A DNA stretch of 41,675 bases from a virus. Shown here piece after piece: positions 5,825 through 29,486 of the stretch (positions are counted from its first letter, which is position 1; each line of letters opens with the position of its first letter). The stretch lies in the IMG/VR virus record IMGVR_UViG_3300020478_000018, positions 1 through 41,675 of that record. One strand, written 5' to 3'. A model generated the notes under the pieces. The model saw only the letters and a list, made by a program, of their open reading frames with translations, ran no database searches and was not told where the DNA came from. Both the position numbers and the translations under genes were made by a program.

Positions 5825-6675
5825 TGCCTAGCTATAGAATCCCAAATCAATCAGCCTATCCACTTCCTCAGAATGCGAGTTGGTGGAAAGGTAACGCTAA
5901 TGGCAAATGGAAAATGAATGACATGCACAGGGCAAGGGCAGGAGATGAATGGCCTCCTACAACTATTCCCCCACCTAATTATGCTGATGGATATTTTCAT
6001 AGATATATAAATCAAGGTCACCATTATTCCCCCAATTGGTTAACCTATAACGATACTTGGGTGAATCAGACTAACTTAAGAAATCAGCACTCAATAGTTA
6101 GCGGATGGTTCAATGCGGTTAGATTTAGATGTACGACCCATGATTGGACATTGCAAGGGATTCAGCATGGCAATAAAACCAGTAGTGGGTCTCAGACTTT
6201 ATATTACAGAATTGGAGTTTGGGAAGGAAATGATGTAAACATTCTTACTGGATCAGGATTAATGGAAGATACAGGAAGTGTCTCCCATGTAATGAATGGA
6301 CAGGGTTGGCCTTATAATAGTTCGGACTTTCTTCTAACTGGTGCTGGTGGTGCTACAGATGGCACAGCAGTTCTTACTCAAAATACTTGGTATACGGTAG
6401 CCATTTTGTACGAACAAAGTTGGAGCGGTACATATTGTGCTTATTCTTATAGCGGAGATACTGGAGGTTATTATTATCCTGGAACGCAACAGTATGGAAC
6501 AGGGACTTTAACTGCTACTAACGCAGGAGGAACCACTACTCTTTATCCATACTTTGAAATGGACGCTTACGGCACTTATGGACAAGGAAATGGTTGGCCT
6601 ACTTTAAGCGGTAATTGGCAGTCAAGTGGTACGTCAGGGCCAATTTCTTCAATCAAGATTAAAGTCTGGCAATAA
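5824..6675 (+). CDS. Receptor-binding-like tail protein, paralogue 3
   Basis: The protein has 283 residues from the ATG at 5824, which overlaps the preceding TAA (TAATG) and follows GAGGGT. An upstream in-frame ATG at 5803 would lie inside the previous gene. The signature WKMNDMHRARAGDEWP is close to paralogue 1, while the body matches paralogue 2: CTTHDWTLQG, YYRIGVWEGNDVN, QNTWYTVAILYEQ and TNAGGTTTL. It is therefore mosaic with respect to its neighbours, as expected of tandem duplication followed by recombination. It is aromatic and Gly-rich and has no signal peptide. The likely role is receptor recognition at the tail tip. Confidence 0.5.
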   Translation: MPSYRIPNQSAYPLPQNASWWKGNANGKWKMNDMHRARAGDEWPPTTIPPPNYADGYFHRYINQGHHYSPNWLTYNDTWVNQTNLRNQHSIVSGWFNAVRFRCTTHDWTLQGIQHGNKTSSGSQTLYYRIGVWEGNDVNILTGSGLMEDTGSVSHVMNGQGWPYNSSDFLLTGAGGATDGTAVLTQNTWYTVAILYEQSWSGTYCAYSYSGDTGGYYYPGTQQYGTGTLTATNAGGTTTLYPYFEMDAYGTYGQGNGWPTLSGNWQSSGTSGPISSIKIKVWQ

Positions 6676-6684
6676 GGAGAAATC

Positions 6685-6999
6685 ATGGCAATAATTGTTA
6701 CTAAAATGTTAGATGTAATGACTGAAGATGGGTATATGACTCAAGAGTATCCTGAGTTTTGCATTATTAAATCACACTTTTGTTATGACCAAGATGACGG
6801 CACATTTGCCACAATCGGACTTGGTGGTGGAACAGAGATTACCAAGGCTCAGTTACATACAAGAGCATTGGAAATTCATGCAAAAGTACCGTTCCTAATT
6901 TCATCAGACCCTGATCTTCCAAACCCACTTAGAGAAAGAACAACCGCAGAAGTTGAAACAATGGTTGACGATTGGTGTGAAGAAAAGAATGTATCTTAA
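6685..6999 (+). CDS. Small protein of unknown function
   Basis: This 104-residue protein follows AAGGAGA seven bases before its ATG. The N-terminal half is strand-rich (MLDVMTEDGYMTQEY, CIIKSHFCYDQDDGTFATIG). The C-terminal half is helical and charged and ends in ETMVDDWCEEKN. There are three cysteines but no CxxC pair. It lies between the receptor-binding paralogues and the lysis-like membrane genes. Position would allow a tail-fibre chaperone or a fibre-tip protein, but no family was recognised. Confidence 0.5.
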   Translation: MAIIVTKMLDVMTEDGYMTQEYPEFCIIKSHFCYDQDDGTFATIGLGGGTEITKAQLHTRALEIHAKVPFLISSDPDLPNPLRERTTAEVETMVDDWCEEKNVS

Positions 7000-7030
7000 A
7001 GTATAATACGCTTAAAGAGAGAGGTTCGTT

Positions 7031-7216
7031 ATGAATTGGATTGGAAAGATAAGACCCCAAATCTTCCTTGCGTTAGTTTCACTTGCAATCATTGCAGTTC
7101 TGGGAATTCAAAAAGAATTAACTGAAATTACAGTTGGATGTATTGCAGGTATTATTGCGTTAGCAAAAGACGTTTTGCAAAGCGATTCTGGTAATGGTGA
7201 TGGAGGTGCAGGGTAA
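7031..7216 (+). CDS. Small membrane protein, holin candidate
   Basis: This 61-residue protein has a hydrophobic segment at about 11-26 (FLALVSLAIIAVLGI) and a second, weaker one at about 33-48 (TVGCIAGIIALAKDVL), followed by a short Gly/Asp/Ser-rich tail. A short N-terminus with basic residues, two helices and a small polar tail is the layout of class II holins. It precedes an XhlA-like membrane protein, and paired small membrane genes after the tail-fibre block are typical of a lysis cassette. GAGAGAGG is upstream of the ATG. The role in lysis is inferred, because I recognise no endolysin beside it. Confidence 0.5.
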   Translation: MNWIGKIRPQIFLALVSLAIIAVLGIQKELTEITVGCIAGIIALAKDVLQSDSGNGDGGAG

Positions 7217-9163: not shown

Positions 9164-9189
9164 AAAAGCCCTCTTAATTGAGGGCTTTT
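9164..9189. terminator. Bidirectional rho-independent terminator
   Basis: A perfect 10-bp stem (AAAAGCCCTC / GAGGGCTTTT) with a six-base TTAATT loop is flanked by A and T tracts on both sides. It lies 7 bases after the stop of the last rightward gene and 16 bases past the end of the last leftward gene, so it ends both converging transcripts. Confidence 0.9.
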
Positions 9190-9204: not shown

Positions 9205-9624
9205 TTAATTAAATAAAACGTGTGGATTTACTTGTTTAGGTGGTTCTTTTCTTACTGTTCTCGCTTTACCAATTGTAATTCCTCTGCCACCTGATGTTGG
9301 GTTACTAAGTATTGAATGTGACTTCTTTACCTTTATATACGCGTCTTCAGAGTTATAGTGAACTTTTCTTTTAAAACAAAACAAGCAAACCCCATTAGAT
9401 GTTTCTCCATTTGGGGATTCCACTATAAAGTAACATGCATGTTCCCCTATAGGTTTAAACTCTAAAGTGCCATTCTTATATTCTGAGGTTATGCGTTTTA
9501 TAGTTGTTTCTGCATACCCTGAGTAGTGGCTAATCTCTTGTACAGTAAATCTTTTATTTCGTGCAGTTAATATAGACATGCGATAGTCTATATTAAATTC
9601 TTGGTATCTATTCTTTCTTTTCAA
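9205..9624 (-). CDS. HTH protein with a Cys pair
   Basis: This 139-residue protein (TTG start at 9624, inside the end of the upstream gene) is the last gene of the leftward arm. Residues about 25-50 (RFTVQEISHYSGYAETTIKR) form a helix-turn-helix of the type found in small DNA-binding phage proteins. The centre contains a single CLFC pair, flanked by beta-type sequence. The C-terminal 40 residues are basic, with a Gly-rich turn. An in-frame ATG at 9579 lacks a ribosome binding site but would keep the HTH. It could be a late regulator or a replication accessory. Confidence 0.5.
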   Translation of the reverse strand: MKRKNRYQEFNIDYRMSILTARNKRFTVQEISHYSGYAETTIKRITSEYKNGTLEFKPIGEHACYFIVESPNGETSNGVCLFCFKRKVHYNSEDAYIKVKKSHSILSNPTSGGRGITIGKARTVRKEPPKQVNPHVLFN

Positions 9625-9931
9625 CTCTCTCTGTTACCCTAACTGAACTATACTTTGAACCTTCCTGATAGACCTCTTCCAACTGCATGGGAGTAAGGAT
9701 TTGGAATAATTTATTTTTATCCCAACGACCCCCACTTTTCCCCATTACAACTGTAGCAGTAAGATTGTTTACCTCTAACCGATTTGTATTATTAGATTCA
9801 CAATAAGTTAAAAGAGTTTGATCTATTTCTTTCTTTCTATCCTTTAACTCTTTTTCCCAATTTTTAATTTTATTTCTTTCTTTAATAAGTGCCTTAATTG
9901 TTTCATCGTTAGTTTCCATATTTAACACCAT
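9608..9931 (-). CDS. Coiled-coil small protein of the recombination module
   Basis: This 107-residue protein has a charged N-terminal coiled coil (about 10-40, IKALIKERNKIKNWEKELKD) and a small beta domain (NNLTATVVMGKSGGRWDKN). A helix follows, then a lysine- and glutamate-rich tail. Proteins with this plan (helix, then a strand pair with an xxATVxxxxSxxWDxxKLxxIL pattern) are common near phage recombination genes and recall Gp157-type proteins, but I cannot assign the family. It overlaps both neighbours, in line with operon coupling. The ATG at 9919 is an alternative start. Confidence 0.5.
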   Translation of the reverse strand: MVLNMETNDETIKALIKERNKIKNWEKELKDRKKEIDQTLLTYCESNNTNRLEVNNLTATVVMGKSGGRWDKNKLFQILTPMQLEEVYQEGSKYSSVRVTERVEKKE

Positions 9932-10332: not shown

Positions 10333-10601
10333 TCTTCATTCTTTAGCAAAACAACATTTCCAACTATTAGTTGTTGTGCAAGTCGAGATGCAATTTCATT
10401 TGGCTCATAACCTTTTATTAACCCTTCTTCATTGCATAACATTACATCCCACTCAGGTTTTTCAGATACTTGATCGAAAAAGATAGGCACGTTTTCTATT
10501 AACCCACCTACAAATCCTTGCAACTCCTTTAAAGTAAACTCAGTTCCATTATTAGGATTCACTTTTTTTATTGTTCCTGTTGTATCAACTATGTACCCCA
10601 T
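10323..10601 (-). CDS. DUF3846-like protein
   Basis: The protein has 92 residues from the ATG at 10601, which follows GAAGGAGAGAG. A longer reading from TTG at 10622 would place the ribosome binding site inside the gene. The pattern GTIKKVNPNNGTEFTLKELQ, then GFVGGLIENVP, then NEEGL--GYEPNEIASRL and GNVVLLKN, matches my recollection of the DUF3846 family found across phages and some plasmids. The family has no established function, although its 'quasi-ubiquitin' spread near replication genes suggests an accessory role. It overlaps the end of the ERCC4 nuclease gene by 17 bases. Confidence 0.55.
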   Translation of the reverse strand: MGYIVDTTGTIKKVNPNNGTEFTLKELQGFVGGLIENVPIFFDQVSEKPEWDVMLCNEEGLIKGYEPNEIASRLAQQLIVGNVVLLKNEEWS

Positions 10602-11331
10602 TACTGAATCTCTCTCCTTCAATAAATGTTCTAATTTTATTTACAGTTGTTTTTCCAAAACCATCTAATTCTTCTATCTCTTTATCAGTAGCCATAACGA
10701 GAGAATGTAAAGATGGGTATTCATTAGCAAGCACTCCTGCACGTTTAATACCAATTCCCATTCTTTCGTACATTTCCATCAGGGGATTATCTAATAATCT
10801 CCAATCTATATACTTGTGTCTTTTCTTATAAAATACTTCCTCAGTATGTTCTTCTTTTCTCCAAAACCTTAATATAGAAAGAAGTGTTGCTACCAAATGA
10901 TTAGTGTCCTGTACTTCTCTTATTCTTCCACCACTTGCTTCAAACCTTGTAAAGATTGAGTTCAGATAATGGAATGAGAATGGAGATTCCCCCCACCTCC
11001 CCCCTCTTACCTTTTCTTGGACTTTACCAGTTTCAAAATCTACCTTAGTGTGAGAGCCAATTAAAAACAGATATGGCACATCAAACTCTTCAGTCATACG
11101 TGGCAATTGAGTCATGAGCCTTCCATCTCTAAGGCTAGATAAAAGGTCACTAGGAGTTTTCTTTAATTCAACTCCTACTCTGACTTGCTCTATTTTCCCT
11201 TGTTTCTTTAGTCTCCCTATAAACATAAGATCAGAAGTATCAAGAGGAGAAACAATTACTCTTGTATGTTTCTCCAAATGAAACTTTAAGTTCTTATCCA
11301 TAGTAGCTTGGTTAGCGTCAAGTATTATCAT
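10585..11331 (-). CDS. ERCC4/XPF-type structure-specific nuclease
   Basis: This 248-residue protein has the ERCC4 nuclease domain in its first 150 residues: VIVSPLDTSDLMFIG (D31/D34), then VGVELKKTPSDLLSSLRDGR (E55, K57, K58, D62), corresponding to the GDx(n)ERKx(3)D active-site pattern with the arginine replaced by Leu-Lys. Conserved LRDGRLMTQLPRM and FLIGSH segments follow. The C-terminal 60 residues form a helix-hairpin-helix pair (ATDKEIEELDGFGKTTVNKI). XPF/Mus81-type nucleases cut branched DNA at 3' flaps and junctions, which fits its place beside RuvB, RecA-like and helicase genes. ATG at 11331 overlaps the upstream gene by four bases. Confidence 0.85.
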   Translation of the reverse strand: MIILDANQATMDKNLKFHLEKHTRVIVSPLDTSDLMFIGRLKKQGKIEQVRVGVELKKTPSDLLSSLRDGRLMTQLPRMTEEFDVPYLFLIGSHTKVDFETGKVQEKVRGGRWGESPFSFHYLNSIFTRFEASGGRIREVQDTNHLVATLLSILRFWRKEEHTEEVFYKKRHKYIDWRLLDNPLMEMYERMGIGIKRAGVLANEYPSLHSLVMATDKEIEELDGFGKTTVNKIRTFIEGERFSNGVHS

Positions 11332-11870
11332 GAGGACATTTTTCTCCTAGTCATACCGAACCCAAACTTTATTCCATTGTATTGTCCTGTACATGTTTTA
11401 GAGCAAAAGTTAATATGTGGATTTTTTCTCCACCCTCTTTTTGTATACGCTCTTCTAGACGCAGTTAAAAAGGAATCAGTAACAGTGGTTTCTTTTCCAC
11501 AGTTAGTACACTTGAAACTAATATAATTAAGAGTCTTAGAGCATTCCCTGCAAAGTTTTCCCCCTTCAGTCTTTTTACTAATGTTAGGTCTTGCTTTGCC
11601 ACACTTTTTACAGTAAGCGATAAAACGTTTGCGATTTTCCCTATAGATCGTATTAAGCCCTTCTGAGGGATTAATATATTGAGGAAGTTCTGACATAAGA
11701 ATTATTTGTCTAACTCTTTCTCTTGTTAGGCTTATCCCATATTTTTCCAATAAAGTGTCAGCTATTTTCTGTAAAGTAATTTCTTGTTGCTTCTCAACAA
11801 TCTCTAATATTAGTTTCCAGTTTGTTTTAGTTCTCAGGTCAATTTCTTTAGGCATTCTTCCATATGGCAT
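11328..11870 (-). CDS. HTH and zinc-finger DNA-binding protein
   Basis: This 180-residue protein combines two parts. The N-terminal 60 residues hold a helix-turn-helix of the sigma-70 region 4 type (LQKIADTLLEKYGISLTRER followed by VRQI). The rest holds a four-cysteine ribbon (CKKCGK ... CRECSK, about residues 87-110) and a second cysteine set (CTNCGK ... FCSKTC, about 120-161) resembling MYM/FCS-type fingers. This suggests specific DNA binding, possibly a transcription or recombination mediator. ATG at 11870 follows AGGGG by seven bases; the start of the next gene lies just inside its end. Confidence 0.6.
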   Translation of the reverse strand: MPYGRMPKEIDLRTKTNWKLILEIVEKQQEITLQKIADTLLEKYGISLTRERVRQIILMSELPQYINPSEGLNTIYRENRKRFIAYCKKCGKARPNISKKTEGGKLCRECSKTLNYISFKCTNCGKETTVTDSFLTASRRAYTKRGWRKNPHINFCSKTCTGQYNGIKFGFGMTRRKMSS

Positions 11871-11871
11871 A

Positions 11872-12630
11872 TCAGACCCCTATAGCGTTTAAGACTGCAT
11901 CAAATGAAGGGTTGTCCACTTCTTCTCCAATCTTTTCTACATTAATTCTGCATTTCTCTATAACAGCAAAACGATCTTTAGTCTCAGGTGAATATTTAAG
12001 TTGAATTTGTAAATCTACCCATTGTGGCAATTGGTTATTACCTGAGTATTCTGTTCTCTGAGTTTTCTCACCTTTAGCGTTATAAACATTTTGACCATGA
12101 TGAGTAATCACACAATTAAGATTAGAATTTCTAATTGCATCTAGAGAACTCTTCATAGCTTTATTCGCATAACGATAATCAAAGGGAAATAAATCTCGAC
12201 CTTGTGCTTTACGTTTCCTGTTAATCTCTTCCATCTCAACTTCTTGCATCATGTGATTCCAAGTAGTTCCTGTATCAATAACAAGAGTTCCATTGTTATC
12301 ACCTTCTGCCACAACATCCTCAATAACTTGTTTCATATAACGATAAATTTTTACTTCATCTACTAAACTTCTTACCAAGGGAATGTCATTAGTGCCTAAT
12401 GCACTTCTGATAATTTCATCTATCTTTACGTCATCAGGTTTAATAAGTTCATTCTGAAGGGCATTCTGTAAACTCCAGTATGCTCCTTCGGGTTCTAGAC
12501 TAAGAAAGTAAATAGGCTTTGGAGCCGTTAAAGCAAAATAACTTTTACCAACTCCTGTACCTGCCCATACACTCATTACAATCCTTCTTCTGTTCTCTAA
12601 ATAAGATGATAAATCTTCAAAGTTATTCAC
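11872..12630 (-). CDS. RecA-like ATPase (Sak4-type recombinase)
   Basis: This 252-residue P-loop ATPase has Walker A AGTGVGKS at 23-30 and Walker B GTLVIDT ending in D119. It has the small size and RecA-core organisation of Sak4/UvsX-mini proteins, which anneal or exchange single strands in phage recombination. A conserved RDLFPFDYRYANKAM segment and THHGQNVYNAKGEKT are typical of this phage group. It sits between a zinc-finger gene and the ERCC4 nuclease gene. The GTG start at 12630 is well placed behind AGGAGAGAG. RAD52-type or RecT proteins were not seen, so this is probably the main recombinase. Confidence 0.8.
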   Translation of the reverse strand: MNNFEDLSSYLENRRRIVMSVWAGTGVGKSYFALTAPKPIYFLSLEPEGAYWSLQNALQNELIKPDDVKIDEIIRSALGTNDIPLVRSLVDEVKIYRYMKQVIEDVVAEGDNNGTLVIDTGTTWNHMMQEVEMEEINRKRKAQGRDLFPFDYRYANKAMKSSLDAIRNSNLNCVITHHGQNVYNAKGEKTQRTEYSGNNQLPQWVDLQIQLKYSPETKDRFAVIEKCRINVEKIGEEVDNPSFDAVLNAIGV

Positions 12631-12832
12631 TACTCTCTCCTACATACGCTTTTGGTGAAACCCAAATATCCATCTTTCCTAAAGACTTCCTAAGTGGGTT
12701 AATAAATATTTTTATACAATTAGGACACACAGGTGCTTTGTCTGTGTAGTAGGCAAGATGGGGAAGAAAGGTAATCATCTTGTCACACTTAATACATAAG
12801 TCTTGTATGTATTCATCTTGCCTAGGACTCAT
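12623..12832 (-). CDS. Small zinc-finger protein
   Basis: The protein has 69 residues from the ATG at 12832, chosen because AGAGG lies six bases upstream; a GTG at 12853 lies inside the previous gene. It has two cysteine pairs spaced like a treble-clef or ribbon finger (CIKC near residue 13 and CPNC near 36) and a basic C-terminal segment. It is sandwiched between the Cas4-like nuclease and the Sak4-like ATPase with overlaps at both ends, so it is co-translated with them and may act as an accessory to end processing. Confidence 0.55.
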   Translation of the reverse strand: MSPRQDEYIQDLCIKCDKMITFLPHLAYYTDKAPVCPNCIKIFINPLRKSLGKMDIWVSPKAYVGESSE

Positions 12833-13493
12833 CACATACCTCTTTATACGCACATCCTCTACATAACCAAGTAAGAGGAGTTTTCATAGGTAATTCGTCC
12901 TGTGCATTCTTGACCTCAATATATTCTTTGTTGTCTAAGAATCTAGCCCAAAGGACTTCTAATTCATACTCGTCCCAAGTTAATGTATATGATCTAAGTC
13001 TAGGTATTGGGTTAAGGAAACAAACAACAAAGTTCATTTGTGTTCTACCACGCATGTGAGTATAAGCACCTGCTTGATCAACCCAATAAAATTTATCTGT
13101 AAATAATTGTTCTGCAGTTTGAGGTTCTTTTCCCCAAGTTAATTTACATTCGTAATCTATTTCTTCTCCTGCAAAATCTATGTGTCCAACAATGCCATCT
13201 TTTTCTACTGAAAGTTCTTGTGTGGACTCAGGTATTAATAAAGAGAAAAAAGATTTCTCCATTGCTCTACCCATAGTAAAACGATATAGAGTTTGTTCTT
13301 CCCATACAGGTTTATGCAGACGCGAAAGTGCGGTTTGTCTTAAACATAAAGTGAGATCAGATACGTGCATACCTGTTCGTGGTTCTGTTTCATAAGTTTT
13401 GACAAGACGATCTTGCCATTTGTTTTCTTCTAGAGTTTCTCTTGTGGCTTTCAAATCTCTCTCCAAATTTGAAGGGAAGTAAGGAATTTTCAT
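12822..13493 (-). CDS. Cas4/RecB-like PD-(D/E)XK exonuclease with Fe-S cysteines
   Basis: This 223-residue nuclease has the RecB/Cas4 motif order: GHID (D106), E115-C-K117 and the helix DQAGAY (Q140, Y144). A single cysteine at residue 50 and a C-terminal C211-x2-C214-x5-C220 arrangement would supply the four ligands of the Cas4/AddB 4Fe-4S cluster. This architecture is known for 5'-3' or bidirectional ssDNA exonucleases that prepare ends for recombination. There is no CRISPR array in the window, so a recombination role with the Sak4-like ATPase is most likely. ATG at 13493, with a purine stretch directly upstream. Confidence 0.85.
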   Translation of the reverse strand: MKIPYFPSNLERDLKATRETLEENKWQDRLVKTYETEPRTGMHVSDLTLCLRQTALSRLHKPVWEEQTLYRFTMGRAMEKSFFSLLIPESTQELSVEKDGIVGHIDFAGEEIDYECKLTWGKEPQTAEQLFTDKFYWVDQAGAYTHMRGRTQMNFVVCFLNPIPRLRSYTLTWDEYELEVLWARFLDNKEYIEVKNAQDELPMKTPLTWLCRGCAYKEVCDES

Positions 13494-13653
13494 CCTCTTG
13501 TTGCAATATCGTCTTGACTATAATGAAGAGTGGAAGTTAGTCCACAGTTTTCTTATACAGTCTTAAAGAAATTACGGGAGGTAGAACTGTGTACCACTCT
13601 ACAGTTGCAATCATATATTCGGACAAGTCACGAATACTTCCCAAGATTCTTTT
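13494..13653. promoter_or_regulatory. Intergenic region with two inverted repeats
   Basis: This 160-bp gap in the leftward arm has no convincing gene. It contains a GTGGA-6-TCCAC inverted repeat (13530-13545), an AACTGT-10-ACAGTT inverted repeat (13585-13606) and a TTGCAAT sequence repeated at 13501 and 13605. No clear -35/-10 pair was found on the minus strand. It separates the ssDNA-binding-like gene from the Cas4-like gene and may hold an operator or RNA structure controlling the distal half of the operon. Confidence 0.35.
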
Positions 13654-14367
13654 TTAACTTAGAGCAATATGACGCTCGTCTACTCTAGTTATAATTCCTG
13701 CTCGTACTGCTCGATCAATAGTGTCTTTCTGAGATACAAGTTCTATAACTTCATCTTTGTACTCTTCTTCAAACTCTATTGCTTTTGTAGCAATATCTCT
13801 TGTTCTCATATTGTCATCAGGATTTGCAGACAATATTGCCCTTAAAAGATCATGGGCATCTGATATTAAACTTTCGTCCACAACACTTCCACCTTGCTCT
13901 CCTAACGGTGGTGATACAGGATATAGAACAGGTCTACCTGCTTCTCCTGTTCGTGGATTATTTTCTGTGTGGGATTTCCAGTGACAAGTAGCACCTTTAA
14001 TTGGAGTAATTGCCCCACCTGTTAAACTAACTCCTGCATGATCTCTCAAAGCAAACATGAGTCTTACAGCTCTAGTATTTTTATTAGGCTGTTGTCCAAC
14101 AACACTTTGACCATCTTCTGAAACCTGATAAGTTTCAGCATTTCCACCCATTGAATACCATCCTCTTACAGGAGGTTCTAAATCAGGATCATACTCCATA
14201 CCCCTTTTAGCGTATTCATATTCTTCGGGTCGAATCATAATAAATATCTGAGTATTGTAATCACCAGTTTGGTATTCAACCATTTCTACTGTACCGTCAA
14301 AATTATCCCATTGACCTGTTGGGAAATCTTCTAATGACGCACCCCAGTTAATTCCATTAGTAGTCAT
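13654..14367 (-). CDS. Probable ssDNA-binding / replication accessory protein
   Basis: This 237-residue protein lies between the XPD-like helicase and the nuclease genes. Its first 150 residues are beta-rich with a strand pattern suggestive of an OB-like binding domain (FDGTVEMVEYQ, TQIFIMIRPEEYEY, RGWYSMGG, and a conserved GATCHWKSHTE). The C-terminal 80 residues are helical and resemble a small winged-helix (ILSANPDDNMRTRDIATKAI). The N-terminal INWGASLEDFP is shared with the protein encoded at 15967. Replacing a standard SSB would fit the module, but no family motif proves this. Confidence 0.5.
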   Translation of the reverse strand: MTTNGINWGASLEDFPTGQWDNFDGTVEMVEYQTGDYNTQIFIMIRPEEYEYAKRGMEYDPDLEPPVRGWYSMGGNAETYQVSEDGQSVVGQQPNKNTRAVRLMFALRDHAGVSLTGGAITPIKGATCHWKSHTENNPRTGEAGRPVLYPVSPPLGEQGGSVVDESLISDAHDLLRAILSANPDDNMRTRDIATKAIEFEEEYKDEVIELVSQKDTIDRAVRAGIITRVDERHIALS

Positions 14368-14372
14368 ATCTT

Positions 14373-15977
14373 TTATATTCCTTCTATTGCACTTAAAATA
14401 CCATTCGGTATTAAATTTTGTGTCCTACACCGTTGTAAAAATTGAGAAGCACCCGAATCGAGAATGATTGTAGGACAAACATCAGTCTCACTCCGAACAC
14501 CTCTTCCTGCCATTTGGATTAAAGTGGCTAAAGTCTCATGGTCATAATACCTCCTGCTTTCTTCTAGTCTTTTTCTCATTACCTTTGAACCTAAATATGG
14601 ATATGGAATCTTTGCAACAATTACTAACTCACATTCTTTATCAGGCAAGTCAACTGCCTTGTCAAAAGAAGGAGAAACTAAAACTGCAGGGGATTCAGCC
14701 CTTTTAAATTGCTCTAGCACTCTTACTCTATTTTTACTGTTATGTGTAAAAACAAAGTCCTTATGTTTAGTTCTTCTTTCAAAGTATTGAGCAATCTTAT
14801 AGTTAACTGTGTGGATTAAAATCTTCTTGTCTAAATTCTGATTAATAATCCTATCAATCTCATCTACTATTACAGGTAGATTAATATCTATACTTTTAGC
14901 ATTCATCATAGCTGTGGGTCGTAGAATAATTCTTCTATTCTCAGGTGGAAACGTATAAGGCAATCTATAGAACTTAAATTCCCTAGGTGCTATCCCAACC
15001 TTTCTAGCTAACTCCTGTCCTGATGGAATTGTTCCACTCATAATAATGTGTCGTGGAGCGTGATCAAATAAAACTTCTTTAGATTTACTTGTCACCCATA
15101 CAGGCTTAAACTCAACTGCATTTCTATCACGTTCTACAACCCAATCTGATTTCATGGTTTTAATAATCTCAAAAGAATCTTTAACTGATTTTGCTCTCTT
15201 AGCTAAAGATATTTCATCCTTTGTCATATCTTTTGGAGATGCGTCATGAGTTTTACTATATAAATCTTCTATCGCATATCCTCTATCTTCACACCATCTT
15301 TGCCACTGAGGTACAGTTTCATAGTCAGGTAAAGGTAAGTTGTAAAGTCTACTCATTTGTCTATCGTAAAGATTGACACGAATAAACTGTTCTAACATGT
15401 CATCTAATATGTGTCCTTCATCACTTACGATTAAATCAAAATCTCCAAACCCTTTTGGGTTAAAGTTCAACATTGTTAAACCATAAGCGTAATTTGTAAC
15501 TACAATTCTTTTCTCTCGAATGTTGTCTATCTGTTGGAAGTAAGCACATTCATGCCTGATGGGGCATTTAAATTTTTCCTTTCCATCTGTAATAACAGAA
15601 CACTTAGCTTCATCAACATGCATTTCAAAGCAAGCACTATTAGAACATTCTGCATCAGCGTAAGGGTCATCTAAATGACAATGAAAATTATTTCTTCCTT
15701 TTACTGAAACAAAATCTTTATAAAGAGGAGTTACGTTCTCCTCATATTGTTGTTGCTCTAATTTAGTTGCACAAAGAACAAGCACTCTTAAATCAGGATT
15801 GAGTGCTGAAAGCATTAATACTAATCCAGTTTTACCTGTTCCTGTGGGGGCTTCAACAACCTTAACTTTTTCTTCATCTCTCTTATATAACCATTTATCA
15901 CTCTCTATCCATTCAAGTGCATTAATTTGTCCACTTCTTAAAGAGTCATAAGGTAATCCATAATCTTTAGGATTCAT
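14373..15977 (-). CDS. XPD/DinG-like superfamily 2 DNA helicase with Fe-S cysteines
   Basis: This 534-residue helicase has Walker A APTGTGKT (43-50), a DEAH-type box DEGH (186-189) and motif VI QMAGRGVR (488-495). Between motifs Ia and II lies a cysteine-rich insert with Cys at 100, 111, 116, 126, 138 and 144, where XPD, DinG and relatives carry a 4Fe-4S cluster. Such helicases unwind 5'-3' and process R-loops and recombination intermediates. At about 530 residues it is shorter than DinG (about 700) and lacks an N-terminal exonuclease domain. ATG at 15977 overlaps the upstream gene by 11 bases. Confidence 0.85.
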   Translation of the reverse strand: MNPKDYGLPYDSLRSGQINALEWIESDKWLYKRDEEKVKVVEAPTGTGKTGLVLMLSALNPDLRVLVLCATKLEQQQYEENVTPLYKDFVSVKGRNNFHCHLDDPYADAECSNSACFEMHVDEAKCSVITDGKEKFKCPIRHECAYFQQIDNIREKRIVVTNYAYGLTMLNFNPKGFGDFDLIVSDEGHILDDMLEQFIRVNLYDRQMSRLYNLPLPDYETVPQWQRWCEDRGYAIEDLYSKTHDASPKDMTKDEISLAKRAKSVKDSFEIIKTMKSDWVVERDRNAVEFKPVWVTSKSKEVLFDHAPRHIIMSGTIPSGQELARKVGIAPREFKFYRLPYTFPPENRRIILRPTAMMNAKSIDINLPVIVDEIDRIINQNLDKKILIHTVNYKIAQYFERRTKHKDFVFTHNSKNRVRVLEQFKRAESPAVLVSPSFDKAVDLPDKECELVIVAKIPYPYLGSKVMRKRLEESRRYYDHETLATLIQMAGRGVRSETDVCPTIILDSGASQFLQRCRTQNLIPNGILSAIEGI

Positions 15978-16575
15978 AAAACTTTTCAGCGTCCTTTATA
16001 GTTTTACTTATAGCCTTATTAGCTTTTAACTTTTCTAGTATCGGTTTAAATCTGTTGTACTCAAATAGTTCATCAACATATAGTTTTGCTAGGAAGGGTT
16101 GAGATATTCTCATTTCCAATACAGGGTCTAAGAATGCTGTAACTCTGCGGTTAATTTCATTCCAATCTTGTCTACTCTCAGAAGATAAAATTGTTAAACC
16201 TTTTGTTAATAACTGTATTGCTCCTAACGCACTCTCTAACATTGCAGATTTCTGTGCTTCTGCCATGATTTGTTTCTCTAATAAAAGATAATGAGTGATT
16301 TGTTCATCATTATTATTTAAGTGCCTTTGAACATCTTGTACACAACGAAATACTGCCAACCTAACAAAATCTGATCTTGTCTTAATTGGCAATCCTTTTC
16401 CTTTGGCATCTTGAATTAATTCATCTACCATTCTTCCTAATTGAGGATCAATCCTAGATTGGATAACATCAGATTCACCTTTGTCATTTGCAGGTCTTAA
16501 ATTAAATTCCCACTCTTCAACATCCTCTTTAGGTAAATCTTCAATGTTTGCATCCCAATTAATTTCACTTGCCAT
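15967..16575 (-). CDS. RHH-like protein with shared N-terminal motif
   Basis: This 202-residue protein opens with INWDANIEDLP, nearly the same peptide that opens the probable ssDNA-binding protein (13654). Residues about 40-75 (VIQSRIDPQLGRMVDELIQD ... TRSDFVRLAVFRCV) read as a ribbon-helix-helix DNA-binding fold: a strand followed by two helices with TRSDFVR at the turn. The rest is long helices, probably a coiled or dimerising domain. It lies directly upstream of the helicase with an overlap, so it may load or regulate it. Confidence 0.5.
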   Translation of the reverse strand: MASEINWDANIEDLPKEDVEEWEFNLRPANDKGESDVIQSRIDPQLGRMVDELIQDAKGKGLPIKTRSDFVRLAVFRCVQDVQRHLNNNDEQITHYLLLEKQIMAEAQKSAMLESALGAIQLLTKGLTILSSESRQDWNEINRRVTAFLDPVLEMRISQPFLAKLYVDELFEYNRFKPILEKLKANKAISKTIKDAEKFYES

Positions 16576-16577
16576 TC

Positions 16578-16895
16578 TTATATACCTCTCTCTAACCTTC
16601 TTCTTATTTCTGATTCATCTCTAATTTGACCTGATTCGACATACCACCTACCACCATAATTAACTCCTTTATATCTTCCTGATCTTATTGACCTTAAAAG
16701 ACTTTGAGGAGATTCGTTTAATCTATCTGATGCTTCTGATAAGTTATAGAAATTAGATAGAATAGATTGAACTTCTGATTCGACTTCTGCAATGCGAGAT
16801 TCAATCTCTTTTTTCTGATCTTTTAAAACAAATATTTCTTCAGATAAATCTTGTACAATTTTTATCCCTTCTATCCCTACATCAAAGTTTGACAT
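16578..16895 (-). CDS. Coiled-coil plus excisionase-like winged-HTH protein
   Basis: This 105-residue protein has an N-terminal coiled coil (about 12-50, DLSEEIFVLKDQKKEIESRI) joined to a small winged-helix domain of the MerR/excisionase type (YNLSEASDRLNESPQSLLRS and IRSGRYKGVNYGGRWYV). Such domains bind DNA and often act as accessory initiator, excision or recombination factors. There is no integrase in the window, which argues against an excision role. It ends two bases before the RHH-like gene and follows a 97-bp gap containing a hairpin. Confidence 0.6.
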   Translation of the reverse strand: MSNFDVGIEGIKIVQDLSEEIFVLKDQKKEIESRIAEVESEVQSILSNFYNLSEASDRLNESPQSLLRSIRSGRYKGVNYGGRWYVESGQIRDESEIRRRLERGI

Positions 16896-16940
16896 TTTAA
16901 TTTATATATTCCTTTATGGGTTTCTTGTATGTTGTATACA

Positions 16941-16969
16941 GGGTGGCAGGATTAATAGGTCTGCCACCT
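16941..16969. promoter_or_regulatory. Nine-bp stem-loop between HTH genes
   Basis: GGGTGGCAG at 16941-16949 pairs with CTGCCACCT at 16961-16969, with one G-T pair and an 11-base loop. It follows the palindrome TGTATACA (16933-16940) and lies in the 97-bp gap between the HTH gene at 16993 and the coiled-coil gene at 16578. No T-tract follows the stem on the minus strand, so it is more likely an operator or mRNA processing/attenuation element than a simple terminator. Confidence 0.45.
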
Positions 16970-16992
16970 ATGTTATATTTATAATATATAGA

Positions 16993-17442
16993 TTAATAAG
17001 CCATCTCAGGAATGTTTAATGAAAACCAATGCTTTCGGTTAAGTTCATCACGAACTACCGCTGTGTGTTTTCCATCTTCTGTATTGATGTGTGTAATCTT
17101 GTGAGATTTAAAATCTTCAAATCTAGCATTACAATCACTGCAATTATCTACAACAGATAATTCAATAATCTCTTTCCCTTCAACTTCCATTCTTAATTCT
17201 CCTGTTGTTGGGGGAAGTCCATTTTGTTTCCGAATTCTAGATACTTGTCTAGTAAGATTTAATTCATTAATCCAACGACTCATAGTTGAAGGTGATATCC
17301 CTAAAGCATCACTTGCTTGTTTCTGTTCGCCCCTAGATTGAATTAGGGCATCAAGGATTAGAGTATCTATCTCTTTTCCAAACTTATATTCCATCATATA
17401 CATGGTGGAAGTTTTTCTAATTATTTTTTGCAAAATATTCAA
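16993..17442 (-). CDS. Fis-like HTH protein with zinc-type Cys pair
   Basis: This 149-residue protein contains a Fis/HTH_8-type helix-turn-helix (residues about 29-62, LDALIQSRGEQKQASDALGI with SPSTMSRWI) followed by a CSDC pair and a beta-rich C-terminal half (KHWFSLNIPEMAY). The start is uncertain: TTG at 17442 or 17433 (the latter nine bases behind AAGGAG), or ATG at 17403 without a ribosome binding site. It overlaps the end of the RuvB-like gene, so the two are likely translated together. A regulatory role in recombination or in switching the operon is plausible. Confidence 0.55.
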   Translation of the reverse strand: MNILQKIIRKTSTMYMMEYKFGKEIDTLILDALIQSRGEQKQASDALGISPSTMSRWINELNLTRQVSRIRKQNGLPPTTGELRMEVEGKEIIELSVVDNCSDCNARFEDFKSHKITHINTEDGKHTAVVRDELNRKHWFSLNIPEMAY

Positions 17443-18337
17443 CTCCTTTTGTTGTGGCTACTCTTCCCCTAGGTGTTCTTTCTATTAAATCCATTTCTAT
17501 TAAATGAGGTTCATAGATTGATTCAATAGCTTTTTCATCTATATTAGTTTGAAGTGAAAGTGCTTTTAGTCCTACTGGATTAAGATCAAATTTATAAATT
17601 AAAGTATCTAGAATTTCAAAGTCGTTAGATGTTAATCCATTTTCATCTATATCTAGATTTCTTAATGTTGTTCTAACAATAGGTTCGTTAATTAGAATTG
17701 TATGAGAAACAGTTGCAGTGTCTCTGCATCTTTCTAGTAAACGATTAGCTGTACGAGGATTTCTTCTTGAGGAAAGGGAAAGGTGGTCGAGAGCTGTATC
17801 TGAAATATCTAATTGCATCTTATGGGCATTTATATAAATGATCTTTTTGATCTCTTCATATGAATATCTTGTAAGTTGCACAATAAATCCAAATCTTTCT
17901 CTAAAAGGTGGAGCGAGTAAACCTAGATCAGTTGTTGCTCCAATAAGTGTGAATGGGCGTAGATTAATTCTTCCACCCCATCCCATAGGATTGTCGATTG
18001 TGTAATCAGTCATAGCTGTATATAAAGTTTCTTGAAGTTTCTTAGGAAGTGCATGAATTTCATCTATAAACATAAATTCATGTTCATGGATTTCTAATAA
18101 GGCATCATAAATGATATTGTGAGATTCAATTACAGGTGCAAGAAAGTGATGACACGAACTGTCAAATTCATTAGCAATTATATTTGCTAAAGTTGTTTTT
18201 CCTAAACCACTTGCTCCATGTAAAAGAATATGGGGAAAAGGTTCATTACGCATTTTAGATGCGTTTAATGAAACCTTAATTGATTTCTTAATTTTGTCTT
18301 GTCCAATATATTCGGTTAAATTGTCAGGTTGTAACAT
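17417..18337 (-). CDS. ruvB: RuvB-like Holliday junction helicase
   Basis: The protein has 306 residues from the ATG at 18337; a TTG six codons upstream is the alternative. RuvB features are in order: GQDKIKK near the N-terminus, Walker A GASGLGKT (41-48, Ala replacing the usual Pro), Walker B MFIDEIH (89-95), sensor 1 GATT (133-136), the arginine-finger segment PPFRERFG (143-150) and the sensor 2 segment RRNPRTANRLL. The C-terminal winged helix (NPVGLKAL and ERTPRGRVATT) is also present. Host RuvB has about 340 residues. RuvB drives Holliday junction branch migration. No RuvA or RuvC partner is visible; the XPF-like nuclease could resolve junctions instead. Confidence 0.9.
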   Translation of the reverse strand: MLQPDNLTEYIGQDKIKKSIKVSLNASKMRNEPFPHILLHGASGLGKTTLANIIANEFDSSCHHFLAPVIESHNIIYDALLEIHEHEFMFIDEIHALPKKLQETLYTAMTDYTIDNPMGWGGRINLRPFTLIGATTDLGLLAPPFRERFGFIVQLTRYSYEEIKKIIYINAHKMQLDISDTALDHLSLSSRRNPRTANRLLERCRDTATVSHTILINEPIVRTTLRNLDIDENGLTSNDFEILDTLIYKFDLNPVGLKALSLQTNIDEKAIESIYEPHLIEMDLIERTPRGRVATTKGVEYFAKNN

Positions 18338-21905: not shown

Positions 21906-22901
21906 TTACTTAAATGTGTTTTTACAATTTATTGCTACTGCTTCACCTCCAATACTAATTTCATTTGGTTGAGGTTTTAATGTAATCTGTACTTCTAAAT
22001 TACAGATTAAACAGTATGAGTTTGAGTATTTAACATCTGATTGATCACTAGGAATAAATGGTAATTCCTCAAACATATCTTTTATATTTTCTTTCTTCCA
22101 ATAATCAGTAGGAATATCTTCCCAATTAGCTAATGAATGTCCTCTAAGATTTATACTTTCTTCAGCTTGATGTTTAAGTACCGTTAGGTTTCTATAAATT
22201 CCTAGTGCTGTTAATGCACTTGGAACGTCTTCATCTTCTGGATAATTTTCACTTGAATATCCTGCACCATGAAATAACTCGTTAGTTATATGTTCGTTAA
22301 TATCAGTAATAAGTTTTTCTTTTCTTTGAGTCATATCTTCATCTTCAAAATATTCAGAGTTAGTAAAATCTATCTCATTACTATTACTGTAGATAAAATC
22401 TTTAACTTCACTTTCTAAATTACCAATGTATTGATTAGATTGTCTTTCTGAAAAATCTTCTTCATTTAATACAGGGTGCATTGTTAATTCTTCATGAATT
22501 TGTTCAATAGCTTGAATGTACTGAATATAATCAAGGTTGTATTTTAGACTTCCTTGTGGAATTAAAATTTGTTCAATCCACCCACAAAGCCAATGCCCAA
22601 AACGTACTATTTCATGTTCTTGTTTATACTCAATTCCTAATTCAGATAATCGTTTAATAATTTCATACCAATTGGATTCAGTTAATAAATCACTATCTCT
22701 ATTTCTTGCATAAACTACAAATTGTTTATATGGGGCTGTCCCCATAAAATTATCGTAACTATCCCAACTAGATAAACTTTGATGAGTCCATTCTTCTAGA
22801 CTAGGTTTATATTCAGTTAACGTATATTCTTGTAAATAATTTGATGGCAATTCGCCATTAATTAAGTAATAAGGGCGTTCTTTAGAAAAATTCTTTGGCA
22901 T
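21906..22901 (-). CDS. Conserved phage protein of the HWxxGWxE family
   Basis: The protein has 331 residues from the ATG at 22901, chosen for GGAGA six bases upstream; a further ATG at 22985 lacks a ribosome binding site. Its core has the succession RNRDSDLLTESNWYEIIKRL, VRFGHWLCGWIEQILI and LTMHPVLNEEDFSE. That sequence pattern (RDSD...S-N, then GHW..GW.E, then PVL.E.DFSE) recurs in uncharacterised proteins of actinobacteriophages that I recall, without any assigned function. A CLIC pair near the C-terminus is unique here. The likeness gives a weak hint about the host. No catalytic motif is visible. Confidence 0.55.
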   Translation of the reverse strand: MPKNFSKERPYYLINGELPSNYLQEYTLTEYKPSLEEWTHQSLSSWDSYDNFMGTAPYKQFVVYARNRDSDLLTESNWYEIIKRLSELGIEYKQEHEIVRFGHWLCGWIEQILIPQGSLKYNLDYIQYIQAIEQIHEELTMHPVLNEEDFSERQSNQYIGNLESEVKDFIYSNSNEIDFTNSEYFEDEDMTQRKEKLITDINEHITNELFHGAGYSSENYPEDEDVPSALTALGIYRNLTVLKHQAEESINLRGHSLANWEDIPTDYWKKENIKDMFEELPFIPSDQSDVKYSNSYCLICNLEVQITLKPQPNEISIGGEAVAINCKNTFK

Positions 22902-23062
22902 TTCGTTTCTCCAAAATTTGCGGTTAATATAAGGATTTTTTTCATTAGTGATAAAAAAAATCAAAAAATTATGACCCAAAACCATTTCTGATCTTGAGCC
23001 ATAAATTTTTATATTTTATAGAAATTATTCTTTATAAATTATTTCTATATTTATTTATTACT

Positions 23063-25101: not shown

Positions 25102-25129
25102 AACACCGCATCTTTTCGGATGCGGTGTT
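25102..25129. terminator. Strong stem-loop terminator
   Basis: AACACCGCATC pairs perfectly with GATGCGGTGTT over 11 bp around a six-base TTTTCG loop. It lies 24 bases beyond the stop of the first leftward gene. On the minus strand the stem is followed by TTGGTTTGGG and then an A-run rather than a clean T-tract, so termination may be partial and regulate the rest of the leftward operon. Confidence 0.7.
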
Positions 25130-26078: not shown

Positions 26079-27380
26079 ATGGATATGTTAAGAATGAGAG
26101 TTTCGACCGTATTGGCGATTGCTTTGACGGTCTCTTTAATGCTCGTGGGAATTGTGGGGTTGGTTGTAAGTTACTTAAACCCTATAAGTGAATGGATACT
26201 TCCTTACCTTGCCCCATGTTTTGATTATGTTGGATGTTGGATTGAGCCTTCCTTTATTTACATGAGTGGCATAGTTGAAACATTAAATGCCAATTGGCTT
26301 ATAACGTTGCCCACTTCTCTTGCAGTTCTCTTTATGGGATTACTGCAACCCGAATCTCGTAGGAATATAAGAGCCTTTCCCAGTAAAGTTCTTTCAGCAT
26401 ATCGCAAAGTATGTTCATGGCGTGATTGGCTCTTTGCCAAGATTGAATACCTAAACGGTGAATCAGTTAAATGGAAGAGGACTTTCAACATACTCAAGTC
26501 TCCCTACACATTATTACGTGCATTCGGGCTAAGTCCACAAATGGCCATATCTCTCTTGGCGGTCGGCTCTACCGCAGGAACTGGAGTCATAGTCAACGAA
26601 ACCGTCTTAGCCGAGCGTTCCTTCTCTAACGGAGATTCAGGTGTTTACCTTGCTCCCCTAGATACTCCTTCTTATTTTGACGATAAGGACAATACGTTAA
26701 GGATTAACCTAGGTGCTGTGCCAGTAAGAGAGATTACTATTGAGAATGTATCAGCAGGTACGGTTTACTCAGGAGATGCCGCAGGGCAAAAGGTTTCAGC
26801 ATTACCATCAACTTGTGGGGCTAACGGAAGTACAGCTTGTACTGAAGCAGTATTAATATCAGGTAACCCAACTGTTACAGGAGATAATGCTTTTACAGGA
26901 ACAAGGTTACAAATAGGTACGTTTATAATTGAGAAGTCTAGATGCAAGAGCATGGACTTCAGCGATATAGACGCACATACAATAGTTATAGAGCATAATG
27001 CCAGCGATGGACAAAGTATTACCCAAACTTCTGGTAACGCGAGAAACAGAGCTATAGGAGGAGGACACCATCAAGCAGAAGCTATGGTGACTAGTGGAGG
27101 TACTTATGACCGTATCTGGATTGACGCTCCTAATAGCGGGGTAAATGGAAAGATAGGTAAATTAACCCTAAGTAACTTGTGGACGAAGGGTGGAAGCTGT
27201 ACTTTCAAGAACATGGACATAGGTGTGTTAAAAATCCTACAGAATGAAGTTGGACATGACGGCAACTTGGTTACAAAGGAATTTGAGGTGGGATCAACCG
27301 TTACTGGGGCTAACTGGACTGTAACCGATAATGTTGAGTTAGTCTTCTCTGAACCTGATCTAGATAAGGGTAACGAGTAA
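26079..27380 (+). CDS. Membrane-anchored protein with beta-rich exposed domain
   Basis: This 433-residue protein is the first gene of the rightward arm. The N-terminal 90 residues contain hydrophobic helices at about 9-32 (VSTVLAIALTVSLMLVGIVG) and 73-90 and a less certain one near 38-50. After a basic stretch there is another helix at about 152-172 (MAISLLAVGSTAGTGVIV). From residue 175 on it is beta-rich and low-complexity (HTIVIEHNASDGQSI, TYDRIWIDAPNSGVNGKIGK), resembling a right-handed beta-helix. GGAGAGAAGGA precedes the ATG. Its place before packaging genes is unusual. It could be an envelope protein or a minor virion component; I recall similar proteins only from uncultured marine phages. 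Confidence 0.55.
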   Translation: MDMLRMRVSTVLAIALTVSLMLVGIVGLVVSYLNPISEWILPYLAPCFDYVGCWIEPSFIYMSGIVETLNANWLITLPTSLAVLFMGLLQPESRRNIRAFPSKVLSAYRKVCSWRDWLFAKIEYLNGESVKWKRTFNILKSPYTLLRAFGLSPQMAISLLAVGSTAGTGVIVNETVLAERSFSNGDSGVYLAPLDTPSYFDDKDNTLRINLGAVPVREITIENVSAGTVYSGDAAGQKVSALPSTCGANGSTACTEAVLISGNPTVTGDNAFTGTRLQIGTFIIEKSRCKSMDFSDIDAHTIVIEHNASDGQSITQTSGNARNRAIGGGHHQAEAMVTSGGTYDRIWIDAPNSGVNGKIGKLTLSNLWTKGGSCTFKNMDIGVLKILQNEVGHDGNLVTKEFEVGSTVTGANWTVTDNVELVFSEPDLDKGNE

Positions 27381-27413: not shown

Positions 27414-28067
27414 ATGGTCGAGAAAACAATATCTAGTTTAGAAGAACATTATGGTTCACCCATTTTAAATGAAGAGGGTGACTCAATATGTGGCAGGGGC
27501 AAAAAGGATGGCGGCATTTGCCGTTTTGAGGCAGGTTGGGGGACAGACCACCTAGGTTTTGGAGCTTGCAAACACCACGACTCAGAAACCAAGATGGACA
27601 TAAGCCCTCTCACAAAAGGAAGAGTCATATACTCTGGAATCGCTAAGAACTCACGACTCAAAGACCACTTACAACAGGAGGAGACCAGAACAGAACTAGA
27701 CAATCTAGATGGAGAAATAGTCCTTCTTCGTGCCATGTTAAAAATTCTCGTAGAAAAGTATGGTGAGAAAGTTGTAGATGACGAACTCTTTGATGTACTG
27801 GAGTATGGAACAGATTTTGATACAGTAGATCAGCAAACAAGAAGTCTAGTTAACCTAGTAGATAAGATCAGCTCTAGCATTAAACGCAAATACGAAGTTC
27901 TTCAAATTGCAGGAAGTACCATTACTAGAGCAAGAGTCAGAGAGTACATCAGTAGTATTCAATTATCTTTAGGTCAAGTCTTAAGAAACGAATGTCCTCA
28001 TTGCCATAAAAAACATAATCAACGAGATCAGGCTATTGAAGCTATAAAGAGAGTTGGTGACCTCTAA
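27414..28067 (+). CDS. Small terminase subunit (probable)
   Basis: This 217-residue protein is encoded ahead of the terminase ATPase gene. The N-terminal 60 residues form the zinc-knuckle-like motif seen in many phage small terminases: C26, C36 (GGICRFEAGWGT), H46 and C52 with H54/H55 (GFGACKHH), of the 'GxPCxxxAGxGTxHxGxGxCxxHxG' type. A charged helical centre follows (LDGEIVLLRAMLKILVEKYG), with a second CPHCHKKH at about 196-203. It would recognise phage DNA and stimulate the ATPase. Stop and next start overlap (TAATG). Confidence 0.7.
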   Translation: MVEKTISSLEEHYGSPILNEEGDSICGRGKKDGGICRFEAGWGTDHLGFGACKHHDSETKMDISPLTKGRVIYSGIAKNSRLKDHLQQEETRTELDNLDGEIVLLRAMLKILVEKYGEKVVDDELFDVLEYGTDFDTVDQQTRSLVNLVDKISSSIKRKYEVLQIAGSTITRARVREYISSIQLSLGQVLRNECPHCHKKHNQRDQAIEAIKRVGDL

Positions 28068-29343: not shown

Positions 29344-29486
29344 AGAAAAAAATATTGATTGGCTCAATGTTTGGTGCTACAGCTTTAATGGCAGGAATTG
29401 CATGGAAAGTTAAAAATGTTCGTATGTGGAAGGATATAGAGAGTACCCTTCCTTTTCCTAGAGCAAAGAAACTTGGAGACAAATAA
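29340..29486 (+). CDS. 48-residue membrane peptide between terminase halves
   Basis: MKKKILIGSMFGATALMAGI opens the peptide: basic N-terminus and one hydrophobic helix of about 18 residues, then a basic, polar tail (VKNVRMWKDIESTLPFPRAK). It overlaps the ATPase gene by ATGA and the nuclease gene by TAATG, and GAGGAG lies in the previous gene just before its ATG, so it is translated within the packaging operon. It looks like an insertion at the joint of the two terminase domains. Possible roles include lysis timing or membrane anchoring; none is proven. Confidence 0.55.
   Translation: MKKKILIGSMFGATALMAGIAWKVKNVRMWKDIESTLPFPRAKKLGDK

Follow-up and report, generated by a model that had tools for sequence, protein, structure and literature searches.

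In bacteria, RuvB is the textbook example of a RuvA-driven motor, in which RuvA targets the hexamer to junctions and sets its ATP cycle. According to the available sections of cryo-electron microscopy work on RuvAB, RuvA drives RuvB through its domain III, which binds the presensor-1 hairpin and serves as nucleotide exchange factor and ATPase activator, and the distance between Arg21 and Glu128 acts as a gate for ADP release (PMC9477746); an Arg beside the Walker B motif contacts DNA (part of PMC10272136). Here we describe a viral RuvB that has kept the ATPase core and lost these RuvA-coupled control features. It is encoded on a 41,675-bp stretch of DNA, IMG/VR record IMGVR_UViG_3300020478_000018 (hereafter the window), in a leftward early unit together with a DinG/XPD-type Fe-S helicase, a Cas4/RecB-like nuclease, a Sak4-type annealing protein and an XPF-type nuclease.

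Several described systems resemble parts of this locus. With bacterial RuvAB it shares the three RuvB domains, the ATPase core, sensor 2 and the RTPRGR motif of the head domain, but the phage has no RuvA or RuvC, and the gate, the Arg adjacent to Walker B and the hydrophobic hairpin contact are lost. The Sak4 modules of temperate phages (HK620 and staphylococcal phages; parts of PMC5499656 and PMC5928155) likewise combine Sak4 with a neighbouring single-stranded DNA-binding protein (SSB), to which the window phage, with its SSB candidate, adds RuvB, the DinG/XPD helicase, the Cas4-like nuclease and XPF. Archaeal XPF/Hef proteins have the same succession of an ERCC4 domain and a helix-hairpin-helix (HhH) region, and Hef is the best NCBIfam match of the phage nuclease (4.5e-8); the phage protein differs in its ELKKxPSD motif, in having no helicase domain and in remaining far below the NCBIfam cut-offs. 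Magroviruses of marine group II archaea are also head-tail viruses that encode an ERCC4-type nuclease, but these viruses themselves encode a DNA polymerase B and a ligase, and the available part of the source makes no mention of RuvB (PMC10160649). Finally, pairs of RuvB with a small protein that we call mini-RuvA, found on other IMG/VR contigs, are alike in being viral and in having no canonical RuvA_N domain; in contrast to the window, they keep the gate and the hydrophobic hairpin and encode RuvA domain III beside RuvB. The literature searched, a scope outside which subscription papers and preprints fell, holds no description of a viral RuvB of the kind found here. The real novelty is a RuvB that loses its RuvA-control features within a RuvA-free and RuvC-free module, together with the series of viral RuvBs that surrounds it.

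The phage RuvB and its RuvA-coupling residues

All three RuvB domains are recognised by Pfam (RuvB_N 1.5e-46, lid 3.7e-14, RuvB_C 5.8e-22), and the protein clears the NCBIfam RuvB equivalog cut-offs (326 against 282 and 308.8 against 299.05 bits). Its predicted structure (predicted local distance difference test, pLDDT, 94.3) matches solved RuvB with Z values up to 35, compared with 19 to 20 for MgsA and clamp loaders. The reading frame starts with ATG at 18337, with an in-frame TTG at 18355. Identity to 19 aligned bacterial RuvBs is 39–44%, and in a quick tree with long branches the viral RuvB group falls outside 80 bacterial RuvBs taken from GTDB genomes. These 80 served as the comparison set for the four members of the window's family, one of which (L097) is cut off before the head arginines.

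The motor is retained: Walker A Lys47-Thr48, Walker B Asp92-Glu93, the sensor-1 Thr, the arginine finger and sensor-2 Arg195 are all present, as is Asp111 (Asp129 in the cryo-electron microscopy numbering, mapped by motif). Head arginines 287, 290 and 292, within RTPRGR, are kept in three of the four members, the truncated L097 being the fourth. The control features coupled to RuvA, namely the Arg21–Glu128 gate and the hydrophobic presensor-1 hairpin, are gone in all four. At position 3 (Arg21), where 80/80 bacterial RuvBs have R, the family members have Q, A, Q and E; at position 110 (Glu128) all four have T instead of the E of 80/80 bacterial proteins. The hairpin, 25 residues long throughout the bacterial set (80/80), has 18–21 residues here, and its position 116, I/L/F/V in 79/80 bacterial RuvBs, is N, Y, T and A in the family; in the model of the window protein its two strands are three residues each (113–115 and 123–125). 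The Arg beside Walker B (position 96, corresponding to Thermus R101 as mapped by motif) is present in 79/80 bacterial RuvBs and replaced by A in 4/4 family members.

The changed residues map to RuvA-binding and gate sites and to one DNA contact, and therefore it is the RuvA-responsive circuit that has been hit, while the motor and the DNA grip of the head domain have been spared. Neither RuvA nor RuvA domain III was found at E<=10 in the nine family records. This combination suggests that the protein possibly needs no RuvA to migrate junctions, or that another partner has taken RuvA's place. We put roughly even odds (about 0.5) on the window RuvB working without RuvA.

Other viral RuvBs and the mini-RuvA reading frames

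A single-protein RuvB query of IMG/VR matched nothing, whereas alignment queries did, a five-member viral RuvB alignment retrieving at least 67 loci. At least 43 viral loci, including three that belong to the window's own family, have a RuvB hidden Markov model (HMM) score above 100. An earlier note on this DNA, made from sequence alone, had called RuvB rare in phages; this holds for named phages, of which 34/50,697 records match RuvB, but not for IMG/VR. That RuvB might be common in named phages was rejected, four of six inspected matches being host DNA with ruvA or host genes adjacent (L103 and L179 are the other two).

At 13 of the 43 loci, the open reading frame (ORF) directly upstream of ruvB is a mini-RuvA (Table 1), which joins an N-terminal zinc-ribbon-like Cys pattern to a C-terminal match to RuvA domain III. 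An HMM of bacterial RuvAs only detects those of L120 (3.9e-6), L125 (1.2e-4), L143 (1.7e-4) and L135 (2.2e-3), the others having been gathered by iteration. Comparison of the 13 with 58 bacterial RuvAs by hhalign gave 95% over the last 50 columns, a value that is partly circular because they had been gathered with RuvA in the profile. When five were scanned with Pfam RuvA_C, L120 reached 22.8 of the required 24 bits, L125 and L143 matched weakly, and L126 and L140 were silent. The N-terminal domain RuvA_N (PF01330) was absent from all 32 viral RuvB records tested. By these matches, mini-RuvA looks like a RuvA cut down to its RuvB-binding domain and placed on a new DNA- or protein-binding module.

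In all 13 RuvBs paired with a mini-RuvA, Arg21 and Glu128 are conserved and position 116 is hydrophobic. No mini-RuvA was detected for the other 31 viral RuvBs, that of the window among them; both gate residues are intact in 17 of these, and the pair is incomplete in the remaining 14, three of which have only one residue lost or left unaligned. The association of gate residues with mini-RuvA pairing (adjacency as judged on the fetched stretch) has a Fisher p of 0.003, which is not a fair probability because the RuvB rows share descent, some of them being near-copies. As far as these alignments go, the pattern is consistent with loss of the gate in the absence of RuvA domain III. Hairpins of only 13–15 residues, with Arg21/Glu128 partly or fully lost, were seen in L119, L127, L130, L136, L146 and L098, on 36–210-kb contigs outside the family.

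The module and the genome that carries it

The record is labelled linear, and its ends (1–103 and 41573–41675) overlap by 103 nt with one mismatch within the tape-measure gene; the map is therefore complete and circular, with a length of about 41.57 kb, and absences of functions apply to the whole genome. In a relative, G003 (IMGVR 3300030329_003902; 41,914 bp), which is likewise complete and circular and is opened at another gene, the ends share 100 nt at 99% identity. The two are circular permutations that share gene order across most of the map. Head and tail genes of this tailed phage run rightward. The early unit runs in the opposite direction, starting near 25.9 kb and ending near 9.2 kb, and terminator-like hairpins lie at 25102–25129 and 9164–9189.

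The five enzymes that the earlier note had placed in one leftward unit are indeed there, with intact catalytic motifs. The five-gene set that it proposed is real and at the same time incomplete, as the SSB candidate and the ribbon-helix-helix (RHH)-like, helix-turn-helix (HTH) and zinc proteins belong to it. In the direction of transcription the unit reads RuvB, HTH protein, coiled-coil/HTH protein, RHH-like protein, helicase, SSB candidate, Cas4-like nuclease, small Cys-rich protein, Sak4, HTH/zinc protein, XPF, DUF3846, zinc protein and Gp157-like protein (Table 1). The two complete maps share this order, which relatives could have contradicted, and seven fragments (L002, L003, L005, L105, G012, G013, G014) are compatible with it, apart from DUF3846, which precedes XPF in L005 and G012, and from single small genes that G013 and G014 lack. 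In the records that cover the respective place, RuvB is present in 4/4, XPF in 6/6, Sak4 in 9/9 and the Cas4-like nuclease in 9/9, and the catalytic residues of the module enzymes are kept across relatives. All five enzymes are seen together only in the two complete maps, because the remaining records are fragments.

Table 1. Reading frames of the leftward unit in the window, and mini-RuvA reading frames at other viral loci
Feature	Position	Strand	Basis or remark
RuvB-type AAA+ motor, 306 aa, RuvA-coupling residues lost	17417..18337	-	Pfam, NCBIfam, model, alignment
HTH (Fis-type) protein with C-terminal CxxC domain; candidate RuvB partner or regulator	16993..17442	-	HTH_8 2.9e-5
Coiled coil + HTH_17-like small protein, conserved	16578..16895	-	HTH_17 0.0012, below cut-off
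202-aa protein, RHH-like N-terminal half	15967..16575	-	read from sequence, no profile match; 54–72% identity in relatives
DinG/XPD superfamily Fe-S helicase, 534 aa	14373..15977	-	Walker A, DEGH, GRGxR, six conserved Cys
SSB candidate, OB-fold-like N-terminal part + C-terminal winged helix	13654..14367	-	model pLDDT 72.6
Cas4/RecB-like nuclease, Fe-S Cys (CLRQ ... CxxCxxxxxC), D..ExK	12822..13493	-	phrog_1706 2.5e-8
Small Cys-rich protein between Cas4-like nuclease and Sak4	12623..12853	-	conserved in nine records
Sak4-type RecA-core annealing protein	11872..12630	-	phrog_124 7.5e-14, AAA_24 8.8e-12
HTH + zinc-ribbon protein, weakly conserved	11328..11870	-	
XPF/ERCC4 nuclease domain + (HhH)2, motif GVELKKTPSD	10585..11331	-	ERCC4 3.3e-7
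Gp157-like coiled-coil protein, end of unit	9608..9931	-	phrog_434, C-terminal part, 1.8e-9; name is a reading
Mini-RuvA ORFs	L120:1431-1817, L125:1704-2213, L126:3036-3455, L131:2909-3355, L135:4255-4665, L137:9553-10017, L138:9553-10017, L139:9474-9989, L140:5300-5764, L141:9531-9995, L142:4527-4991, L143:2577-2990, L145:5404-5823		upstream of ruvB

The matches of RuvB, the helicase and Sak4 to their families lie far outside what chance would give; that of XPF is moderate, and the Pfam match of the Cas4-like nuclease is weak. The helicase, which the earlier note had labelled XPD-like, is an Fe-S helicase as claimed but equally of DinG/YoaA type: phrog_2488 matches at 2.8e-82, NCBIfam YoaA/DinG at 6e-24 and rad3 at 1e-3, and the top PDB match of a four-sequence profile is archaeal XPD (9e-9). 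Because NCBIfam favours YoaA/DinG and the PDB profile XPD, "DinG/XPD Fe-S helicase" is the safer name; a reading as archaeal XPD is weakened by the NCBIfam result and by a PADLOC match to type IV DinG. In all six records with the whole gene GTGKT, DEGH, GRGVR and the six Cys of the Fe-S domain are kept. PADLOC scans of the other seven proteins supported no defence-system reading, giving just general AAA and weak HTH matches. With a Pfam Cas4 match of 0.025 (15.1 against a cut-off of 22.7 bits), the nuclease is to be filed as Cas4/RecB-like only on its profile matches; its D..ECK motif and four Cys are found in 9/9 records. Sak4 is 64–91% identical among relatives, with Walker A GTGVGKS (STGVGKS in one relative) and LVIDT in seven of nine (L003 ends before it and L105 differs); tblastn with it against the 50,697 phage records gave no match.

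For XPF, the ERCC4 domain is above the Pfam cut-off (30.7 against 24 bits) and D34, E55, K57 and D62 are invariant in 6/6 records. The canonical XPF active site is ERKxxxD, and the phage form ELKKxPSD, found in all six records, keeps E-x-K and D. The C-terminal (HhH)2 region matches HHH_2 at 5.8e-5, below cut-off, and the alignment with solved XPF, which we take to be that of Aeropyrum, runs through the C-terminal part. Among 14 control genomes, the ERCC4 family occurred only in the four archaea and RuvA only in the ten bacteria, on which grounds the module mixes lineages.

Two of the smaller proteins bear on how the module might work. The HTH gene and the 3' end of ruvB overlap in the window (17417–17442), in G003 (L004 5965–5993) and in L002. 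The HTH protein is present wherever RuvB is (4/4 records) and is 45–57% conserved in the three covering relatives; it is the leading candidate for a partner that would target RuvB to DNA in place of RuvA, or else may be a regulator. The SSB candidate has no Pfam or PHROG match. In structure searches it matches viral DUF669 models (E 3e-4) and nothing in the PDB below 1e-3, where the first match is a CST complex chain read as Stn1 (6e-3), followed weakly by cullin, RPA2 and other winged helices. The model thus faintly suggests the architecture of an oligonucleotide/oligosaccharide-binding (OB) fold plus winged helix shared with RPA2/STN1. The motif INWxxxIEDxP stands at the N-terminus of both the SSB candidate and the RHH-like protein, and of these two genes only, in the window, G003 and L002; it is perhaps a common docking peptide.

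Other viral RuvB loci, screened as stretches of up to about 21 kb, gave no match at E<=1e-4 to family-specific HMMs of XPF, Cas4-like nuclease and Sak4; the helicase HMM matched one of them (L099), in which the protein matching the RuvB family (71 bits) is a divergent AAA protein. Within this test, the five-gene set is confined to the window's phage family.

As the earlier note had also claimed, RuvA, RuvC, DNA polymerase, primase and replicative helicase were not found in this complete genome by family searches with built-in positive controls at E<=1. DNA polymerase A was found in 0/7 records; polymerase B, DnaB, the DnaG zinc ribbon, Prim-Pol and PriS were each found in 0/3, Pol III alpha having had no separate search; and RuvA_N and RuvC (PF02075) were each found in 0/7, five of these seven records being fragments. 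The unidentified early proteins, among which a divergent polymerase or primase was looked for with Pfam and PHROGs, gave no replication-enzyme match. This includes the 359-aa product of 21906–22985, considered as a hidden polymerase and rejected, which is 30–37% conserved, unlike the enzymes. Tailed phages of about 42 kb commonly rely on the host polymerase, so its lack is not surprising by itself.

Elsewhere in the genome, no tRNA was found in the window, a sigma-70 promoter scan gave 43 sites, fewer than the 80 in shuffles, and the Sak4 alignment found no relative in GTDB genomes. Searches with capsid, portal and terminase reached distant phages only, the best being Microcystis phage Mae-JY22 (30–31% for capsid and portal). 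The large terminase lies in two genes, ATPase (28552–29343) and nuclease (29486–30358), with a 48-aa ORF between them; G003 has in this slot a PAPS-reductase-like ORF, read from sequence (6368–7147). Directly before the terminase genes is a staphylococcal-nuclease-type endonuclease (28067–28552; PF00565 1e-12, phrog_452 7e-36). A 745-aa ORF (31990–34227) apparently fuses head protease and major capsid protein (phrog_29592 1e-107; PF25209 3e-35), with Mae-JY22 as its closest named relative (31%). A 433-aa protein of no family (26079–27380), read as hydrophobic N-terminal segments with a beta-rich rest, is 86% identical in G012 and unmatched in G003, which has a different membrane-type ORF there.

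Alternative readings and the meaning of a possibly RuvA-independent RuvB

The reading that we prefer is that of a replication-recombination module of a small tailed phage, in which Sak4 and SSB would support recombination-dependent replication on host synthesis, with a RuvA-independent RuvB and an XPF junction nuclease; we give it about even odds. From their families, we infer that the Cas4/RecB-like nuclease would resect DNA ends and the DinG/XPD helicase open duplexes 5' to 3'. The OB/winged-helix protein may coat the single strands, on which Sak4 would carry out annealing or strand invasion, giving primers for the host polymerase and concatemers for packaging. A RuvB hexamer would then move branch points, and the XPF-HhH nuclease would cut branches and flaps, leaving the concatemers fit for packaging, presumably by a headful-type mechanism, with which the circularly permuted maps fit. 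That the XPF protein might stand in for RuvC, as the earlier note proposed, fits the distribution of the two families, RuvC being absent in 7/7 records and XPF present in 6/6 covering ones. Its proposal of recombination-dependent replication gains from the conserved unit and from the precedent of Sak4 and its cognate SSB, both required for phage replication in S. aureus (part of PMC5499656), and loses the lack of a polymerase as a distinctive trait, which is ordinary at 42 kb.

Several points weigh against this reading. A RuvA encoded by the host could still be present. The SSB assignment is weak, and the XPF motif is one residue longer between K and D than the canonical one. Hairpin length is not diagnostic: because 11/13 mini-RuvA-paired RuvBs also have only 21 residues, it was withdrawn as evidence, and shortening was dropped as stand-alone proof of RuvA loss. 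Moreover, since 17/31 RuvBs keep the gate with no mini-RuvA beside them, the absence of RuvA does not force its loss.

If the motor does need a DNA-recognition subunit, a phage protein unrelated to RuvA may have replaced it, most likely the HTH protein acting on the altered hairpin. The overlap of its gene with ruvB and its constant company with RuvB speak for such an adaptor, as does the hairpin, which has been reshaped and not removed. Proteins of the HTH_8/Fis type, though, mostly act as regulators, and the altered hairpin varies within the family, which a docking site should not, so that we regard this as unlikely. Somewhat less probable still is an ordinary RuvB that pairs with the host RuvA and whose changes are drift. 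The equivalog cut-offs are passed, a hairpin still exists, and cross-species hetero-complementation of RuvA and RuvB is mentioned in the available part of PMC9477746; against this, both partners of the Arg21–Glu128 pair are lost in 4/4 members while the ATPase core is strictly kept, which is not a pattern of drift, and the module mixes lineages. We give equally little credit to a RuvB recruited as double-stranded DNA translocase or loader for replication start or packaging instead of for Holliday junctions. Such a role would agree with the missing DnaB, with the resemblance of the AAA+ core to MgsA and clamp loaders (Z 19) and with Mycoplasma RuvBs reported to have helicase but no branch-migration activity (part of PMC3364216), but the RuvB fold match is much stronger (Z 35) and the gene sits beside a junction-type nuclease and an annealing protein.

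Returning to a RuvA-independent RuvB in a recombination module, we tentatively propose, at somewhat below even odds, that these phages uncoupled RuvB from RuvA, and that RuvB and the XPF-type nuclease, possibly with the HTH protein as adaptor, form a junction machine of bacterial-type and archaeal-type (XPF/Hef) parts, while other phages retained just domain III of RuvA, joined to a zinc ribbon. If this is true, a natural RuvB that kept the motor without the control residues would reveal the requirements of the bare motor and provide a tool for branch migration that is minimal and possibly self-sufficient. Across the viral proteins, which range from full loss through mini-RuvA pairing to intact RuvBs, the proposed Arg21–Glu128 gate becomes directly testable by comparison of natural variants. 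A further gain is a complete phage lineage in which no polymerase is detectable and whose conserved core would be RuvB/XPF junction processing and not DNA synthesis.

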